Part shown: positions 6,679-58,505 of the stretch, piece after piece
Numbering within the stretch: the first letter of the stretch is position 1
How the letters are laid out: every line of letters begins with the position of its first letter
Source of the DNA: Ruania halotolerans
Lineage (GTDB): Bacteria; Actinomycetota; Actinomycetes; Actinomycetales; Beutenbergiaceae
NCBI RefSeq assembly: GCF_021049285.1
Contig: NZ_CP088017.1
Span: forward strand, 2,925,380 to 2,989,379
DNA: 64,000 nt
Direction: 5' to 3'
Made by a program: the position numbers and the translations under genes
The notes under the pieces: generated by a model
Seen by the model: only the letters and a program-made list of their open reading frames with translations
What the model was told of the DNA's origin: nothing
Database searches by the model: none

Positions 6679-7261
6679 GCACATCGGAGCATTCGGCGCG
6701 GGCAAGGAGATCGGCGGCCGCTGCCCGCGCCGTCCGGAGTTGCTGAGCGCTGCCGTCGATACCGCGCTGCGCCACGGCCCCCTCGGCCAGGAGGAACACA
6801 TGGTCGGCGAGTTGTTCCGGATCACCTGCCTCCGGCCGGTCGGCTTCGATGAGCTCACCTATCCGACGGCGGACGGCCCGTTTGTGCTCGCGGATCACCT
6901 CATACCCAGGGTGGTCCTCGGGTAATTCGCCGGCGGCGTTCAGGAACGCGCAGCCGCGCTGCACCGAGGGTGCGTCCCGCTCATAGGCATCGAACACGGC
7001 GAGAGCGCGCGGCGGCCTGGCCGCCTCGATCCGCTGCTCGAACCGCTCCCACCACCGCGCATGTCTGCGCTGGAGGTAGGCCGCGACGAGCGCCTCCTTG
7101 GAACCGAACCGGTCATACAGCGTGCGCTTCGTGACGCCCGATTCGGCGGCGATCGTATCCACCCCAACCGCGTGGATACCGCGCGCGTAGAACAGGTCCG
7201 AGGCCACCTCGAGGATGCGTGCGGCGCCGGGTGTCAACCGCGGCGGCCGATCTGCCTCCAT
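6668..7261 (-). CDS. TetR/AcrR-family regulator
   Basis: The 197-residue repressor has an N-terminal helix-turn-helix (ARILEVASDLFYARGIHAVGVDTIAAESGVTKRTLYDRFGSKEALVAAYL) followed by an all-helical ligand domain containing RGCAFLNAAGELPEDHPGYEVI, a pattern seen in the TetR group with a TetR_C_33-like C-terminus. It is divergent from an MFS transporter gene, and perfect inverted repeats fill the gap. It therefore probably represses itself and the transporter until an inducer binds. The ligand is unknown. Confidence 0.9.
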   Translation of the reverse strand: MEADRPPRLTPGAARILEVASDLFYARGIHAVGVDTIAAESGVTKRTLYDRFGSKEALVAAYLQRRHARWWERFEQRIEAARPPRALAVFDAYERDAPSVQRGCAFLNAAGELPEDHPGYEVIREHKRAVRRRIGELIEADRPEAGDPEQLADHVFLLAEGAVAQRGIDGSAQQLRTARAAAADLLARAECSDVLRE

Positions 7262-7276
7262 GCGGTCACCTCCTTG

Positions 7277-7324
7277 ACTTCACAGGTCAGTGTACATAAC
7301 GTGCACTTCACAGACCTGTGAAGT
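7277..7324. promoter_or_regulatory. TetR operator region with nested dyads
   Basis: ACTTCACAGGTC at 7277-7288 and GACCTGTGAAGT at 7313-7324 are perfect 12-bp inverted arms. Inside them a second dyad, AGTGTAC (7289-7295) with GTGCACT (7301-7307), has one mismatch. They cover the whole promoter gap between the divergent TetR and MFS genes. Confidence 0.7.
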
Positions 7325-7338
7325 GATGAGGGAATTGC

Positions 7339-8613
7339 ATGAGCGACACCACGACCAGTGCATCGACACCGCTGCTGAGTGCGGCCGGCACCGTCCGCCT
7401 CGCCGGCGCCGGCCTGTTCCTGATCGCCGTCTGCTACGGCCTGGCCCGGTTCGCCTACGGCCTGTTCGTACCCGTCTTCCGCACCACCTTCGGCATCGAA
7501 GCCGCTCTCGCCGGAGCCATCGCCTCCGGCGCCTATGCCGCATACGCGGTGACCATCGTGTGCGCCTCGCTCCTGACTCCGCGCTGGGGAGCGCGCCGGA
7601 TCGCCATCATTGCCGGAGCCGTCGCCACCGGCGGGACTGCGCTGATTGCCACTGCACAAGGGCCCGCCACGCTCGCGCTGGGCGTGATCATCGCCGGGTC
7701 CAGCACCGGCATTGCCTCACCCCCGTTGGCTCACGCCGTGGCGCAGTCAGTCGCCGAACCCTTGCGGAACAGAGCCCAGACCGTCATCAATGCCGGCACC
7801 GGAGCAGGCGTGATGATCGCTGGACCGATCGCGCTGCTGACGCTGGACCACTGGCGACTGGCCTGGGTGATATTCGCGCTCCTGTGCGCCGCGGCGACCA
7901 CGGCTGCCGCACTGACCATCCCCGCACCCGACGGGACGCGTCACGGCGGTGCGCGCTCACCGCTCGTTCCGCGCCCGACGTTCCCTCCGGGCGCGCTCCG
8001 GCTACTCACGGCCGCCGCGCTGATGGGGGCGAGCAGCTCAGCGATCTGGACCTTCGGGCGCGATCTGCTGGTCTCCGTAGGCGGGATGAGCGACCACGCC
8101 TCGACCGTGCTGTGGATCCTGCTCGGCGCATTCGGCCTTGTCGGCGCCGTCGCGGGCGATCTCGCCCAGCGCTGGGGAGTACGGCGCGCCTGGCCCGGCG
8201 TCGCTCTCAGCATGGCGGCGGCCACCGTGCTCCTCGCCCTGGCCCCCGGCAGCCCGGGACTGGCCGGCGTTGCCGCAGCGGTGTTCGGAGCCGCGTACGT
8301 CGCGGTGACCGGATTGCTCTTGCTGTGGGGAGCCGAGGTGTACCGGCATCATCCTGCGGCCGGCGTGGGCATGGCCTTCCTGTTGCTCGCCGTGGGCCAG
8401 GCCGTGATGTCCCCTCTGGTCGGCCTGATCGCCGACCAGATCAGCGCGCTCGTCGCCTTCTCGGCCGCCGCGGCGATCGGGTGCCTCGGCAGTGCGTTCG
8501 GTCCTGCACGCCATGGCAGAGCCCACGCTCACTCCTCGACCGGCAGCCCGTGCCCGGCGAGCAGTGCCTCAACGCCTCGAGTGAACTCCTCTGAAGGATC
8601 CCAGGGCAACTGA
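7339..8613 (+). CDS. MFS transporter (YbfB/YjiJ-like)
   Basis: The 424-residue integral membrane protein has about 12 hydrophobic segments. The first is GLFLIAVCYGLARFAYGLFVPVF, whose YGLARFAYG pattern is typical of YbfB/YjiJ-type MFS proteins. Basic cytoplasmic loops such as PRWGARR and QRWGVRRAW occur at the usual places. It probably exports or imports a small molecule, with expression controlled by the divergent TetR protein. The last 30 residues or so (Ser- and His-rich) look unlike the family and run 85 bp into the 3' end of the convergent second TetR gene, so the natural end may have been lost. Confidence 0.85.
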   Translation: MSDTTTSASTPLLSAAGTVRLAGAGLFLIAVCYGLARFAYGLFVPVFRTTFGIEAALAGAIASGAYAAYAVTIVCASLLTPRWGARRIAIIAGAVATGGTALIATAQGPATLALGVIIAGSSTGIASPPLAHAVAQSVAEPLRNRAQTVINAGTGAGVMIAGPIALLTLDHWRLAWVIFALLCAAATTAAALTIPAPDGTRHGGARSPLVPRPTFPPGALRLLTAAALMGASSSAIWTFGRDLLVSVGGMSDHASTVLWILLGAFGLVGAVAGDLAQRWGVRRAWPGVALSMAAATVLLALAPGSPGLAGVAAAVFGAAYVAVTGLLLLWGAEVYRHHPAAGVGMAFLLLAVGQAVMSPLVGLIADQISALVAFSAAAAIGCLGSAFGPARHGRAHAHSSTGSPCPASSASTPRVNSSEGSQGN

Positions 8614-24384: not shown

Positions 24385-24466
24385 GCGCGAGTGGCGTAAC
24401 TGGCAGCCGCGCAGGATTTAGGTTCCTGTGCCTTCGGGCGTGCGGGTTCGAGTCCCGCCTCGCGCA
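24385..24466 (+). tRNA. tRNA-Leu (anticodon TAG)
   Basis: The 82-nt tRNA with a long variable arm begins GCGCGAGTGGCG. Acceptor arms GCGCGAG and CTCGCGC pair perfectly, the anticodon stem CAGGA/TCCTG encloses TTTAGGT (anticodon TAG), and the T arm has GGGTTCGAGTCCC. CCA is not encoded. The 3' end is the first unit of a tandem repeat. Confidence 0.96.
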
Positions 24467-24601
24467 CTGTGACGAAGGAACTGTGCTCAAGCGGGACGAG
24501 GAGGAGCGCAGCGACGGCCCCGCCTCGCGCACTGTGACGAAGGAACTGTGCTCAAGCGGGACGAGGAGGAGCGCAGCGACTCCCCGCGCCTCGCGCACTG
24601 T
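24456..24601. repeat. Tandem repeat of about 65 bp seeded by the tRNA-Leu 3' end
   Basis: A unit starting CGCCTCGCGCACTGT (the last 11 bp of tRNA-Leu plus flank) and running through a GAGGAGCGCAGCGAC stretch occurs at 24456-24520 and again at 24521-24586. A third partial copy of the first 15 bp begins at 24587. The two full units are almost identical; they differ only in the few bases before each junction. Confidence 0.85.
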
Positions 24602-24606
24602 CGTGA

Positions 24607-24645
24607 GCGTCGCGTAGCCGCGTTCGCCAACCCACCCCGCGACGC
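24607..24645. terminator. Possible terminator downstream of tRNA-Leu
   Basis: GCGTCGCG at 24607-24614 and CGCGACGC at 24638-24645 form a perfect 8-bp dyad with a 23-nt loop. It is the first dyad after tRNA-Leu and the tandem repeat, and lies just before the DUF4916 gene. The loop is long for a terminator. Confidence 0.35.
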
Positions 24646-25199: not shown

Positions 25200-25612
25200 G
25201 CGAGAAGGGAGCCCCGACGGCGCAGCCCGCCCCGGTCGTCGTCGGTCAACCCGCCTGGTCAGCTGGGGCCGATGTGGTGGCGGTGCTGGTGTTCGTCATC
25301 GCAGGCCGTGGCACGCATCACGACTCCGGGGTGACCATCGGCACCCTCGGCACTGCATGGCCGTTCCTCGTCGCCCTGATCCTCGGCTGGGCGCTTGCGC
25401 GTGCGTGGCGCAGTCCGGTGCGCCCGTGGCCCACTGGCACCGTCGTGTGGCTGGTGACGGCGGCCGGTGGCCTGACCCTGCGCGGCCTCACCGGAGGTGG
25501 GTTGTCCGGCGCCTTCCCCCTCGTGACGGTGCTCGCCCTGGGCGGACTCATGGTCGGCTGGCGCGCCGTGGTCGTGCTCTGGCGCCGACTTCGTCCGGCG
25601 CGGGTTGCCTGA
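25196..25612 (+). CDS. DUF3054 membrane protein
   Basis: The protein has four hydrophobic segments: VVAVLVFVIAGRGTHHDSG, WPFLVALILGWALARAW, VVWLVTAAGGLTLRGLTGGG and FPLVTVLALGGLMVGWRAVVVLW, matching actinobacterial DUF3054. The start is unclear: the only in-frame alternatives are a GTG at 25091 deep in the previous gene and a GTG at 25274 inside the first membrane segment. A CTG at 25196, overlapping the upstream TGA stop, would give a normal 138-residue protein. Its last codons and stop (ARVA) are supplied by the hairpin repeat at 25602. Function unknown. Confidence 0.7.
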   Translation: MSEKGAPTAQPAPVVVGQPAWSAGADVVAVLVFVIAGRGTHHDSGVTIGTLGTAWPFLVALILGWALARAWRSPVRPWPTGTVVWLVTAAGGLTLRGLTGGGLSGAFPLVTVLALGGLMVGWRAVVVLWRRLRPARVA

Positions 25613-25651
25613 GTGTCGTGAATCAGGCTGAACGCGACACTCAAGCCACCC
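25602..25651. repeat. Palindromic 'RVA-stop' hairpin element, copy 1
   Basis: The left arm GGGTTGCCTGAGTGTCG (25602-25618) and right arm CGACACTCAAGCCACCC (25635-25651) form a hairpin with a perfect 9-bp core. It spans the stop codons of both convergent genes: the left arm encodes RVA-stop of DUF3054 and the right arm, read on the other strand, encodes RVA-stop of the GNAT protein. It is a likely bidirectional terminator and shares arms with the copy at 27173. Confidence 0.8.
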
Positions 25652-26144
25652 TCGTCGAGTGCATCAGGTAGATCAGGTTGCCCTCGCTGCGGTCTCGGCG
25701 GAACCCGATCCGGTAGAGAACACGCAAGGAAGCTGCGTTCCACGAGCGCACCGAGGCCCACACCTGGCCGAACCCGGCTCGATGTCCCTCGGCCACCACG
25801 GCAGCGGCAGCCGTCGTCCCGAAGCCGCGGCCCTGATCGGGCCAACGGATCTCGAGGCCAAGCTCTGGGTACGGTGCAGTTCGGCCTATCAGGAGGCCGG
25901 CCGTGCCGATCATCGTGCCGTCGGATCGACACACGCCGTACCAGGTCACCCCGTGCGAGTCTCGCCGGACCGCACGCCGTTCCAGCCACAAACGGGTCTC
26001 CTCGGGATCGCGCACCGGCCCGTCACCGATCGTGTGTGTCTGCGGGTCCGAGAAGATGGCATGGACGTCGGCGTGGTCACCCGGGGTAAGCACACGAAGG
26101 GTGAGCTCCCCGGCGGCGAGGACGTCGGACATCTGAGGCACCAT
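25641..26144 (-). CDS. GNAT-family N-acetyltransferase (RimJ-like)
   Basis: The protein of about 167 residues acetylates an amine using acetyl-CoA. It has GELTLRVLTPGDHADVHAIFSDPQTHTIGDGP, WYGVCRSDGTMIGTAGLLIG and LGLEIRWPDQGRGFGTTAAAAVVAEGHRAGFGQVWASVRSWNAASLRVLYRIGFR. The Q/RGxGxT-like acetyl-CoA loop is QGRGFGTT. The start is MVPQMSDVL at 26144 or MSDVL at 26132. The C-terminal TRVA-stop comes from the hairpin repeat. The substrate is unknown. Confidence 0.85.
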   Translation of the reverse strand: MVPQMSDVLAAGELTLRVLTPGDHADVHAIFSDPQTHTIGDGPVRDPEETRLWLERRAVRRDSHGVTWYGVCRSDGTMIGTAGLLIGRTAPYPELGLEIRWPDQGRGFGTTAAAAVVAEGHRAGFGQVWASVRSWNAASLRVLYRIGFRRDRSEGNLIYLMHSTRVA

Positions 26145-26238
26145 CCGCCCACGGTAGCCATGCCATGTCGCTGCTCTGCGCCACCGCGCTATCCACAAGC
26201 TCCAGCGCAACGCTCACGTCGTGTGGTGCGATCGGTTC

Positions 26239-27183
26239 ATGGCAGCTCAGCGGATGATCGTGAGCGCGGAGTCTCTCGCCCGGCGTCAGGCCGGCATGAT
26301 CGGCCACGCCCAGGCCAGGGCGGAAGGGGTCACGGTCGCGCAGCTGCGGAACCTGGTACGGCGAGGCCGCTGGCTCCGGGTCACCCGCGGTGTGTATCGC
26401 ACGCCGGTGGATACGCTCCTGGACTCGTGGGACGAGGTCAGGCAGCAGGCCGCATGGACGGGTGTGCTGGCCGTCCCAGGTTCGACGGCGGTCGGCATGG
26501 CGGCGCTGGCGCTGCAGCAGGTCCAAGGGCTGCCACGGCGGATCCGGCCAGAGGTGGGCGTTTCGCACGGACGGAGCATCACCGGCCCGGCCGGCGTCCT
26601 GGTGCGACGTTGTCGCCATCCGATCCCGGCGGTGCTCATCAACGGGTTTCGCGTCGCAACGGTCCCGGTCGCTCTCGCGCATGCGCTGCCCGAGATGAGC
26701 CGCCGGGATGCCGTTGCAGTACTGGATTCCGCTCTGCACACGGGGCGGTTGACGTCCGTGGGGATGCGGGAACTCGAGCGGACTCTGCACGGCCGGCGCG
26801 GCGCACAGAGAGCGAGAGAGCTGATCACGCTCGCCGACGGTCGGGCCGAGTCGCCATTGGAGACCCGGGCACGACTACTCTTCGTCGACGCGGGGCTGCC
26901 ACCGCCCGACCTGCAGGTTCGGGTTCACGACCGCGCCGGCCGGGTGGTCGCTCGCGGCGATCTGGGGTGGCAGCGATCGGACGGCACGTGGGTGATCGTC
27001 GAGATGGATGGCCGTGGGGTGCACGGGACACCGACGGCCGTCTACCAGGACCGAAGCCGCCAGAACCGCATGGTGCTGAGCCGGCAGGTCACCATCCTGC
27101 GGTTCACTGATCAGGACCTGGACGACGGCAGCGCCGTGGAAATGATCGGCCGCGCGCTGTGCCACCCCGCGAGGGTTGCCTGA
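26239..27183 (+). CDS. AbiEi-like N-terminal plus DUF559 nuclease-fold protein
   Basis: The protein of about 314 residues combines an N-terminal AbiEi-antitoxin-like winged helix (GVTVAQLRNLVRRGRWLRVTRGVYRTP) with a middle domain that resembles type IV TA antitoxins. The C-terminal DUF559 fold is related to Vsr and restriction nucleases (SPLETRARLLFVDAGLPPPDLQ, RGDLGW, VIVEMDGRGVHG, and YQDRSRQNRMVLSRQVTILRFTDQDL). The acidic residues in the E-x-R, GDLGW and E-x-D positions fit a PD-(D/E)XK site. No partner toxin lies beside it. This architecture is common and multicopy in actinobacteria; its function is not established. ATG 26239 is preferred; GTG 26221 is possible. The stop lies in hairpin copy 2. 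Confidence 0.78.
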   Translation: MAAQRMIVSAESLARRQAGMIGHAQARAEGVTVAQLRNLVRRGRWLRVTRGVYRTPVDTLLDSWDEVRQQAAWTGVLAVPGSTAVGMAALALQQVQGLPRRIRPEVGVSHGRSITGPAGVLVRRCRHPIPAVLINGFRVATVPVALAHALPEMSRRDAVAVLDSALHTGRLTSVGMRELERTLHGRRGAQRARELITLADGRAESPLETRARLLFVDAGLPPPDLQVRVHDRAGRVVARGDLGWQRSDGTWVIVEMDGRGVHGTPTAVYQDRSRQNRMVLSRQVTILRFTDQDLDDGSAVEMIGRALCHPARVA

Positions 27184-27222
27184 GTGTCGAAGTACGCGCG
27201 AAACGCGACACTCAGCCAACCC
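27173..27222. repeat. Palindromic 'RVA-stop' hairpin element, copy 2
   Basis: GGGTTGCCTGAGTGTCG (27173-27189) and CGACACTCAGCCAACCC (27206-27222) pair at 16 of 17 positions. The left arm is identical over 17 bp to the left arm of the copy at 25602, and again it encodes the final RVA-stop of the gene it ends (DUF559). It probably serves as a terminator between this gene and the convergent ABC operon. Confidence 0.8.
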
Positions 27223-27243
27223 ACCGCGAGGCGTGCGGCGTGA

Positions 27244-28131
27244 CTACTTGATCGCACCCATGGAGAGTCCGCGCACCAGCTGCTTCTGCGCCACCCACCC
27301 GGCGATCAGCACCGGCAGGGAAGCCAGCAGGCTCGCAGCGGAGAGGCGGGCCAGGAACAGGCCCTCACTGGTCATCGTGGAGGTGATGAAGATCGGCACT
27401 GTCGCCGCCCTGGCGGCGGTGAGGTTCAGGGCGAAGAAGAACTCGTTCCAGGCGAAGATCACGCAGATCAGCGCCGTCGCGGCCAATCCGGGCGCGACCA
27501 TCGGGATGAGCACGGCGCGCAGCGTGCGCATCAGCCCCGCACCATCCATGGACGCAGCCTCGAGCACCTCACCGGGGATCTCCTGGAAGAACGAGCGCAT
27601 CATCCACACCGCGATCGGCAGGTTCATCGCGGTGTACAGCACCACGAGGGTCCAGATCGTGTCGAGCACGTGCAGCCGGCCTGCGATCACGTAGATGGGC
27701 ACGATTACGGCCACCACCGGCAGCATCTTGGTGGACATGAAGAAGAACAGCACATCGCTGGTCTTCTTCACCGGCCGGATCGCCAGAGCGTATGAGGCCG
27801 GTACCGCCAGCGCGATCACCAGCAGCGTGGAGACGCCTGTGGCGATCAGGGAGTTCGCGAAGAACACCCCCGCTCCGCCGTCGATCACCGCGCGGAACTG
27901 GTCCAACGTGGGCGTGAAGAACCACGTGGGTGGATTGGAGGCTGCTTCACTCTCCTGTTTGAACGCCGTCAGGGCCATCCAGGCCACCGGGAAGAAGAAC
28001 GCGATCGCCACCACCCAGGTGAGCACGGTGAGCAACCCGCCACCTAGTCCCGCGCCCCGGTCCGGGCGAGGGGCACGGACCGCGGCGGGGCCGGCGGAAC
28101 TACGAATGTCAGGGGACGTCGTCGTCATCAT
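27244..28131 (-). CDS. Polyol/sugar ABC permease (MalG/SmoG-like)
   Basis: The 295-residue CUT1-family inner-membrane permease has about six hydrophobic segments. The ATPase-contact loop is EAASMDGAGLMRTLRAVLIPMVAPGLAATAL, and the C-terminus AGWVAQKQLVRGLSMGAIK is typical of mannitol/sorbitol-type SmoG and MtlG permeases. Its ATG overlaps the stop of the preceding permease (TGATG). It is the last gene of an SBP-permease-permease operon. No ATPase is encoded here, so it probably shares a multi-sugar ATPase encoded elsewhere, as is usual in actinobacteria. Confidence 0.9.
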   Translation of the reverse strand: MMTTTSPDIRSSAGPAAVRAPRPDRGAGLGGGLLTVLTWVVAIAFFFPVAWMALTAFKQESEAASNPPTWFFTPTLDQFRAVIDGGAGVFFANSLIATGVSTLLVIALAVPASYALAIRPVKKTSDVLFFFMSTKMLPVVAVIVPIYVIAGRLHVLDTIWTLVVLYTAMNLPIAVWMMRSFFQEIPGEVLEAASMDGAGLMRTLRAVLIPMVAPGLAATALICVIFAWNEFFFALNLTAARAATVPIFITSTMTSEGLFLARLSAASLLASLPVLIAGWVAQKQLVRGLSMGAIK

Positions 28132-47438: not shown

Positions 47439-47541
47439 CCGCCCTTCCCCCTGCGCCCTGTGCACCGCTCCAGCGAGCCTGCTGCCCCGGGCACCCGCTC
47501 GACTGATCGCGTCGCGGCGTGGGGACCACCGCATGAAGACG

Positions 47542-47577
47542 ACGAAGGGGCGCGGGATCACTCCCACGCCCCTTCGT
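47542..47577. terminator. Bidirectional terminator between TetR and HU
   Basis: ACGAAGGGGCG at 47542-47552 pairs perfectly over 11 bp with CGCCCCTTCGT at 47567-47577. It lies in the gap between the convergent tetR and hup genes. Confidence 0.8.
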
Positions 47578-47580
47578 CAC

Positions 47581-58464: not shown

Positions 58465-58505
58465 TGACGAAGGACGGCCCGAAACGTATGGGCCGTCCTT
58501 CGTCA
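58465..58505. terminator. Bidirectional terminator between VOC gene and ssrA
   Basis: TGACGAAGGACGGCCC at 58465-58480 pairs perfectly over 16 bp with GGGCCGTCCTTCGTCA at 58490-58505. It lies 9 bp after the VOC stop and 1 bp from the tmRNA 3' end. Confidence 0.88.

Follow-up and report, generated by a model that had tools for sequence, protein, structure and literature searches.

REPIN-like 56-bp palindromes at gene 3' ends in Ruania as candidate bidirectional RNA hairpins

Introduction

The closest described systems are the REPINs, inverted doublets of REP sequences in which conserved inverted ends enclose a less conserved spacer of constant length and the whole forms a hairpin (Bertels and Rainey, 2011; PMC3116915). 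The same account places them outside genes and describes compensatory changes in them. REPINs come with a RAYT (Y1) transposase, and a single REP folds alone. Hundreds of REPIN doublets are found in P. fluorescens SBW25, and small REP families are among those described in PMC3733652. In that source, REPs tagged with GTAG or CGTC have stems of 5-13 bp and occupy gaps whose flanking genes are convergent or co-directional, in many cases under 20 bp from a gene 3' end; TGTC is given as a variant of the CGTC tag, and the stop codons of flanking ORFs are supplied by repeat ends. REPs also serve as insertion targets, since ISPsy8 and ISRm22 insert at their symmetry axis, ISPsy8 with a 3-bp direct repeat, as PMC1525189 describes.

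The window analysed here is a stretch of 64,000 nucleotides from Ruania halotolerans (contig NZ_CP088017.1). Two hairpins in it share with REPINs the inverted conserved ends, the less conserved spacer of constant length, the compensatory changes and the extragenic place. Their stems are 20 bp long, against 5-13 bp in the tagged REPs, and the genome holds about a dozen copies, against hundreds in SBW25. REPINs are the closest known kind, and the Ruania elements a REPIN-like variant; they are not classed as REPINs because the defining transposase was sought and not found. Among the papers listed in searches of the open-licence literature, no title or abstract concerned this element.

Elements and gene calls

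Handles beginning with G, L and C denote genomes, loci and contigs. Counts refer to 81 elements taken from the loci of the listed pattern and covariance-model matches. At twelve loci an arm match was found that belongs to none of the counted elements: eight are weaker or altered elements (L222, L223, L225, L227, L229, L232, L233 and L239), left out of the 81, and four (L220, L221, L224 and L228) are solitary arm-like matches. Also outside the 81 are L280, L281 and the IS-interrupted elements of G006 (R. rhizosphaerae). In L226 (G004, C2 2,267,050-2,279,035), the arm-like sequence CGCGGGTGGCCTGGGTGTTG occurs three times in 12 kb.

A set of 78 elements was obtained by removing three with other spacers (20 nt in G003, 17 nt in G006 and 15 nt in G002). 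L022 was dropped after the first alignment because of a wrong offset, and one low-grade match in L146 was dropped from the 78-element set and from the position counts. The 48 elements used for pairing were hand-picked, one per recognised orthologous group, and the 17 orthologous pairs were likewise chosen by hand. Genes were called by a simple codon-usage script.

Two hairpins in the window

The initial annotation had described two hairpins with a common 17-bp arm, and both were found in place, the palindrome in fact reaching 20 bp per side (Table 1). The left arms (25602-25618 and 27173-27189) are identical over 17 bp, and the right arms carry 2 and 1 mismatches. With up to 3 mismatches, the arm has four matches in the window against 0.30 expected, a number reached by none of 100 shuffles. 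As RNA, the two strands fold at -33.6 and -32.0 kcal/mol for element 1 and at -29.7 and -36.8 kcal/mol for element 2, and none of 200 shuffles folds as stably as either element on either strand; a stable hairpin follows the stop codon. Three single arms from the window, folded alone, gave 0 to -1.1 kcal/mol and were not more stable than shuffles, in which they differ from a single REP. An Rfam scan of the window placed only tmRNA and two tRNAs above the gathering score and gave no match for the elements.

Table 1. Coordinates of the two elements, of the genes around them and of the interrupted elements in G006
Feature	Position	Strand	Description
Element 1	25599..25654	.	20-bp arm + 16-nt spacer (25619-25634) + 20-bp arm; 17/20 arm positions pair
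Element 2	27170..27225	.	20-bp arm + 16-nt spacer (27190-27205) + 20-bp arm; 17/20 arm positions pair
DUF3054 gene	25274..25612	+	PF11255, E 1.6e-22; last 14 nt inside left arm of element 1; ends PARVA-stop; start 25274 script-assigned and uncertain, longest ORF begins 25091
GNAT acetyltransferase gene	25641..26144	-	PF13302, E 4.4e-21; last 14 nt inside right arm of element 1; ends STRVA-stop; start script-assigned, longest ORF extends to 26210
AbiEi_4-domain protein ("DUF559" label)	26254..27183	+	PF13338, E 2.3e-10; last 14 nt inside left arm of element 2; ends PARVA-stop; start script-assigned, longest ORF begins 26221
ABC transporter permease gene	27244..28131	-	PF00528, E 6.1e-15; 3' end faces element 2 and stops 18 nt outside
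IS-bearing G006 contig ends	C1, C5, C6, C8, C39, C40, C41, C42		loci L095, L096, L230, L231, L234-L238, L249

Other repeats were noticed in the window. About 65 nt are directly repeated (by eye) at 24450-24620, after the tRNA gene at 24385-24466. Two further strong hairpins at 47541-47578 and 58465-58505, the second adjoining the tmRNA gene, have the stem ends GACGAAGG/CCTTCGTC in common and are perhaps a second repeated hairpin type. A 16-bp inverted repeat of ACTTCACAGGTC type, operator-like in look, stands in a divergent gap at 7261-7339.

Distribution in the genus and the order

Members of the family are 56-bp palindromes in which arms of 20 bp, with the consensus CGAGGGTGGCCTGAGTGTCG, flank a 16-nt spacer of variable sequence. 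Searching the whole genome with the core alone (8+16+8, up to 3 mismatches) gave 30 places against 28 in the reversed control, so most weak core matches are due to chance. Flanking arms prolong the palindrome at 11 clear copies (among the 15 core matches listed, of 30), and a covariance model returned the same 11 places among its matches listed, with 32 matches on both strands at E<=1. One weak twelfth copy, with 15 of 20 pairs, lies at about 1,968,745 (L222). When the spacer between GTGTCG and CGACAC was left free from 6 to 30 nt, it measured exactly 16 nt in 10 of 16 places (control 11 places); one of these ten (3,789,700) has no family arms. The earlier suggestion that a second copy within 1.6 kb implied a family in this genome is therefore borne out by the 11 clear copies and the weak twelfth.

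Beyond this genome, a longer pattern was found in 5 of 8 Ruania genomes and in none of 141 others, while the covariance model matched 7 of the 8, the exception being G001; G005 holds a diverged version of the same length. The search for the arm with its spacer in the whole genome and in relatives, proposed as a check, thus returned far more than two copies. A chance coincidence of two copies is rejected by the window shuffles, the genome copies and the genus-wide pattern and model matches. Across the order, 14 of 297 genomes match the covariance model, and 7 of these belong to other genera. When the core TGAGTGYCG alone was searched, with the spacer left free, it occurred in 29 of 396 genomes and 12 of 109 genera, at 68 places against 2 in the reversed control.

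Outside Ruania the plan varies. In genus g19 the spacer is 15 or 16 nt in 26 of 27 copies (among the matches listed, chosen by the core), and the outer arms are unlike those of Ruania. In genus g16 it is mostly 26 nt around the same core, so the spacer length is not universal. Local pairs were seen in both genera: two of the g16 hairpins stand 1.2 kb apart (G363; L274), and g19 has pairs with like spacers 0.6 and 1.9 kb apart (L255 in G133 and L259 in G348), the second pair inverted. Scanning named genomes brought up 12 stretches, of which R. rhizosphaerae supplied 4; a rough estimate puts the chance expectation at about four.

Pairing of the stem and conservation of the arm

In the 48 elements, 90.0% of 960 cells are paired, whereas slid registers pair in just 33-42%. 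Two-sided changes number 60 against 21.5 in shuffles, and none of 500 shuffles reaches 60. Between the two halves of the spacer, pairing somewhat exceeds that of shuffled halves at five of the eight positions; the remaining three show no excess. Among the 17 orthologous pairs, identity is 86% in the arms (584/680), 70% in the spacers (190/272, ungapped) and 73% in the flanks (745/1020, gapped). That the arms are better kept than the spacers would suggest a factor that reads the arm; no such factor was found. The same pairs hold 17 two-sided against 54 one-sided changes, with one pair alone showing 7 two-sided changes and zero one-sided.

Arm agreement is about 16-17 of 20 positions within the R. 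halotolerans genome, G003 and G006, and nearly the same between them. G007 stands apart, with 17.4 within and 15.3-16.1 to other genomes. CGAT forms the arm core in 20 of 36 G007 arms and GAGT in 14 of 22 R. halotolerans arms, with G002 mixed. Judged on these arms, G007 and G005 clearly have a dialect of their own, which does not hold for all species.

Placement at gene 3' ends

Predicted genes are overlapped by two of the 81 elements; the other 79 are extragenic, 42 between convergent, 32 between co-directional and 5 between divergent genes. All 614 gaps of the same loci comprise 108 convergent, 406 co-directional and 100 divergent ones (42/81 against 108/614, p 1.1e-10), and the 535 element-free gaps comprise 66, 374 and 95 (p 1.2e-14 against the elements); since orthologous copies were counted apart, both p values are too small. 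Where a stop codon faces the element, the distance is at most 60 nt in 69 of 76 elements (median 17.5). This placement is like that of the tagged REPs. Among the 78 elements, GTAG stands near the arm end in one and CGTC at the outer end in none; the inner arm end reads TGTC.

Bidirectional intrinsic terminators form the same kind of strong hairpin between convergent genes; here a U-tract is missing and the arm sequence is common to different loci. U-tract terminators are often called scarce in actinobacteria. No T-run of 4 or more was found in 156 element flanks, and the elements thus depart from intrinsic terminators in this trait. In the window, a strong hairpin stands in 3 of 12 convergent gaps, two of the three being elements 1 and 2, so such hairpins are no general rule there. 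One convergent junction lacks elements in G003 and holds an unrelated long inverted repeat (by eye); the same junction in G006 reads element-gene-element.

The reading tentatively preferred, at a confidence just short of even, is that these are lineage-specific REPIN-like palindromes acting as a bidirectional 3'-end RNA hairpin. They form a family with a 16-nt spacer in most copies, with two-sided pairing changes, a 3'-end position and persistence at orthologous loci; from this we infer that the element terminates or stabilises transcripts. Transcription from either side would let a 56-nt hairpin form directly after the stop codon. The hairpin would then mark the transcript 3' end, either through termination without a U-tract or by barring 3' exonucleases and read-through into the facing gene. 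Insertion sequences landing in elements, and genes gained or lost at their edges, would be a consequence of lying between transcripts and not a function.

Such a bidirectional 3'-end element fits the pairing, the place at 3' ends and the replacement by another inverted repeat. Of the terminator role proposed at the outset, the position and the folding hold up and the U-tract is missing, so that the element is not a canonical intrinsic terminator, which weakens the reading. It is also weakened by the five divergent placements and two overlaps with genes, by the excess of one-sided over two-sided changes in orthologous pairs, and by the few convergent window gaps with hairpins. A plain terminator, moreover, needs no common arm sequence, yet the arms are alike. 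Nor does a 3'-end RNA role need the copying or recombination to which half-spacers common to different loci point (see below).

Arg-Val-Ala-stop endings

All three proteins that run into the two window elements end Arg-Val-Ala-stop in one register, as first noted; the third had been named DUF559, for which Pfam gives AbiEi_4 instead at E<=0.001. Only one of the three frames of the arm has a stop, TGA. A gene that loses its own stop would run into the arm in this sole TGA frame and acquire the Arg-Val-Ala ending. Nine gene ends, on 7 of the 81 elements, overlap an arm by 14 nt; the ending is -VA-stop in eight, RVA in six of these, and -NAA-stop in the ninth.

Orthologues without the arm end otherwise, which agrees with the claim that the arm supplies C-termini. 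For DUF3054, five of seven orthologues (G001, G002, G004, G005 and G007) stop outside the arm and have other C-termini, and those of G003 and G006 stop in the arm and end RVA. The DUF559 relatives end in LAE in G005, where the arm is missing, in RVA in G004 and in KVA in G007, the last on a lone arm next to a full element. The comparison of orthologous C-termini proposed earlier thus came out as predicted for these two families; for GNAT a single orthologue was found, itself with an element, and no element-free one. C-terminal coding as a designed property is not borne out. Because a single arm frame meets TGA, and because no more than 7 of the 81 elements are concerned, with nine gene ends between them, the ending looks like an incidental side effect. 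The element does rewrite C-termini, though rarely.

Possible spread of the elements

Rather unlikely, though next in order, is that the family is a selfish REPIN-like repeat spread by some transposase, its 3'-end position marking where insertions are tolerated. Two conserved ends, a variable spacer of constant length and two-sided changes would all suit it, as in the REPINs of PMC3116915. Among the fetched loci, those of the R. halotolerans clade and those of G002/G007 are linked at the focal locus only, which implies that copies were gained or lost. Six-nucleotide half-spacers recur at different loci above shuffles in five of six genomes (observed/shuffled: R. halotolerans 2/0.11, G006 6/0.25, G007 15/5.2, G003 2/0.17, G004 2/0.73, G002 0/0.16), which leaves copying or recombination possible.

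Against this alternative, the Y1_Tnp profile (PF01797) matched in 0 of 8 Ruania genomes, with a positive control in E. coli (control 5/14), and a REP with RAYT is rejected. Spacers alike at 14-16 of 16 positions occur in three local pairs, and one distant pair only reaches 14/16 (G007, reverse orientation), the others staying at 13 or below. Neither a target duplication, one of the marks of a MITE, nor a clean empty site was established for the elements. Loci with an element in G006 only are, compared with G003, replaced or rearranged junctions with no simple insertion, so a clean gain was not seen; for L116 the regions that were guessed yielded no match, and for L115 they yielded a flank only. 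The proposal of a mobile or recombining element is accordingly left with the shared half-spacers, the gene gain and loss and the IS insertion at elements, and lacks a Y1/RAYT in the eight genomes.

Alike arms around changing spacers, without RAYT, would point to a trans-acting factor that reads the arm. In a broader and unlikely proposal, several genera of the order would each have their own dialect of one hairpin plan (a lineage-specific outer arm, the core TGAGTGYCG and a spacer of 15-16 nt), implying such an arm-recognising factor, which could act at 3' ends or in termination or else be a mobiliser other than Y1, with the elements as gene-exchange boundaries. If the 3'-end hairpin reading holds, actinobacteria would gain a defined, countable family of this kind. 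The elements are also REPIN-like while lacking the transposase credited with maintaining REPIN populations, which raises the question of what else keeps the arm sequence. A palindrome of this kind can rewrite protein C-termini and sit where genes come and go.

Gene traffic at the elements

Improbable, in turn, is that the elements are sites of gene-cassette exchange, at which recombination between elements adds or removes genes. It would account for the focal locus, whose content varies by species. G001 has no element and 35 bp between alignable flanks; G007 and G002 have one element, that of G002 shorter and diverged; G005 has a different inverted repeat, seen by eye and missed by the hairpin script; and in G006 the element is interrupted by an IS. 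G003 reads element-GNAT-element, G004 element-DUF559-element, and R. halotolerans has both genes between two elements. Exchange is also favoured by eight element pairs with under 4 kb between them, spread over five genomes (0.1-0.3 per genome expected by chance, a rough estimate), by gene-insertion edges that coincide with an element at L110/L124 and L119/L123, and by the three local pairs with alike spacers. In one of the eight pairs, however, at the R. halotolerans locus L101, the second element comes with no gene difference, and synteny breaks away from elements too, for example at L117/L120.

Half-spacers show no clear crossover point either. A clean crossover at the spacer centre was considered and dropped: the spacers of element 1 and G004 agree at 12/16 over both halves (by hand), which simple divergence explains equally well. 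The core sites of integron attC are RYYYAAC and GTTRRRY. This core pair is present in 0 of 78 elements, and integron-type sites are rejected for that reason.

Very improbable is that a protein, dimeric or chromosome-organising, binds the elements as double-stranded DNA. The mostly fixed spacing, the common arm sequence and the different arm core in G007 and G005 would speak for this, but the arms change together and keep their pairing, which independent half-sites would not need, and the 3'-end placement also tells against it.

Insertion sequence in the hairpin centre

At ten contig ends of G006, an arm and 9-10 nt of spacer adjoin the end of one and the same repeat (Table 1). The inner motif of this repeat has 11 exact matches in G006, 10 of them in element spacers; the eleventh is internal and has no arm. 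Set against the uninterrupted G003 orthologue (L113), and taken to flank a single copy, the end of C39 and the start of C40 suggest that the 3 bp GGC in the middle of the spacer were duplicated as a direct repeat. The insertion at the axis is the same as that of ISPsy8 and ISRm22 in REPs; here the palindrome is actinobacterial and different, and the IS looks IS30-like.

An IS30 model gave 0 matches in G006, the IS transposase being missing from that assembly, 2 in G003 and 2 in G005 (one below the cut-off). The end of the G005 IS30 element resembles the repeat ends of G006, and from this resemblance we infer the IS30-like assignment of the G006 repeat. Beside the two G003 copies no such end was found next to an element, and the IS-end motif has no match in the R. 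halotolerans genome. As far as these contig ends indicate, an IS30-like element uses the family as its insertion target in one sister species. The odd spacers of L223 (G004) and L229 (G003) contain IS-end-like pieces and are possibly scars of excision. G005 also holds the inverted repeat TCGCGAACGC... (L275 and L168), and in L275 an IS30-type element adjoins a similar half.
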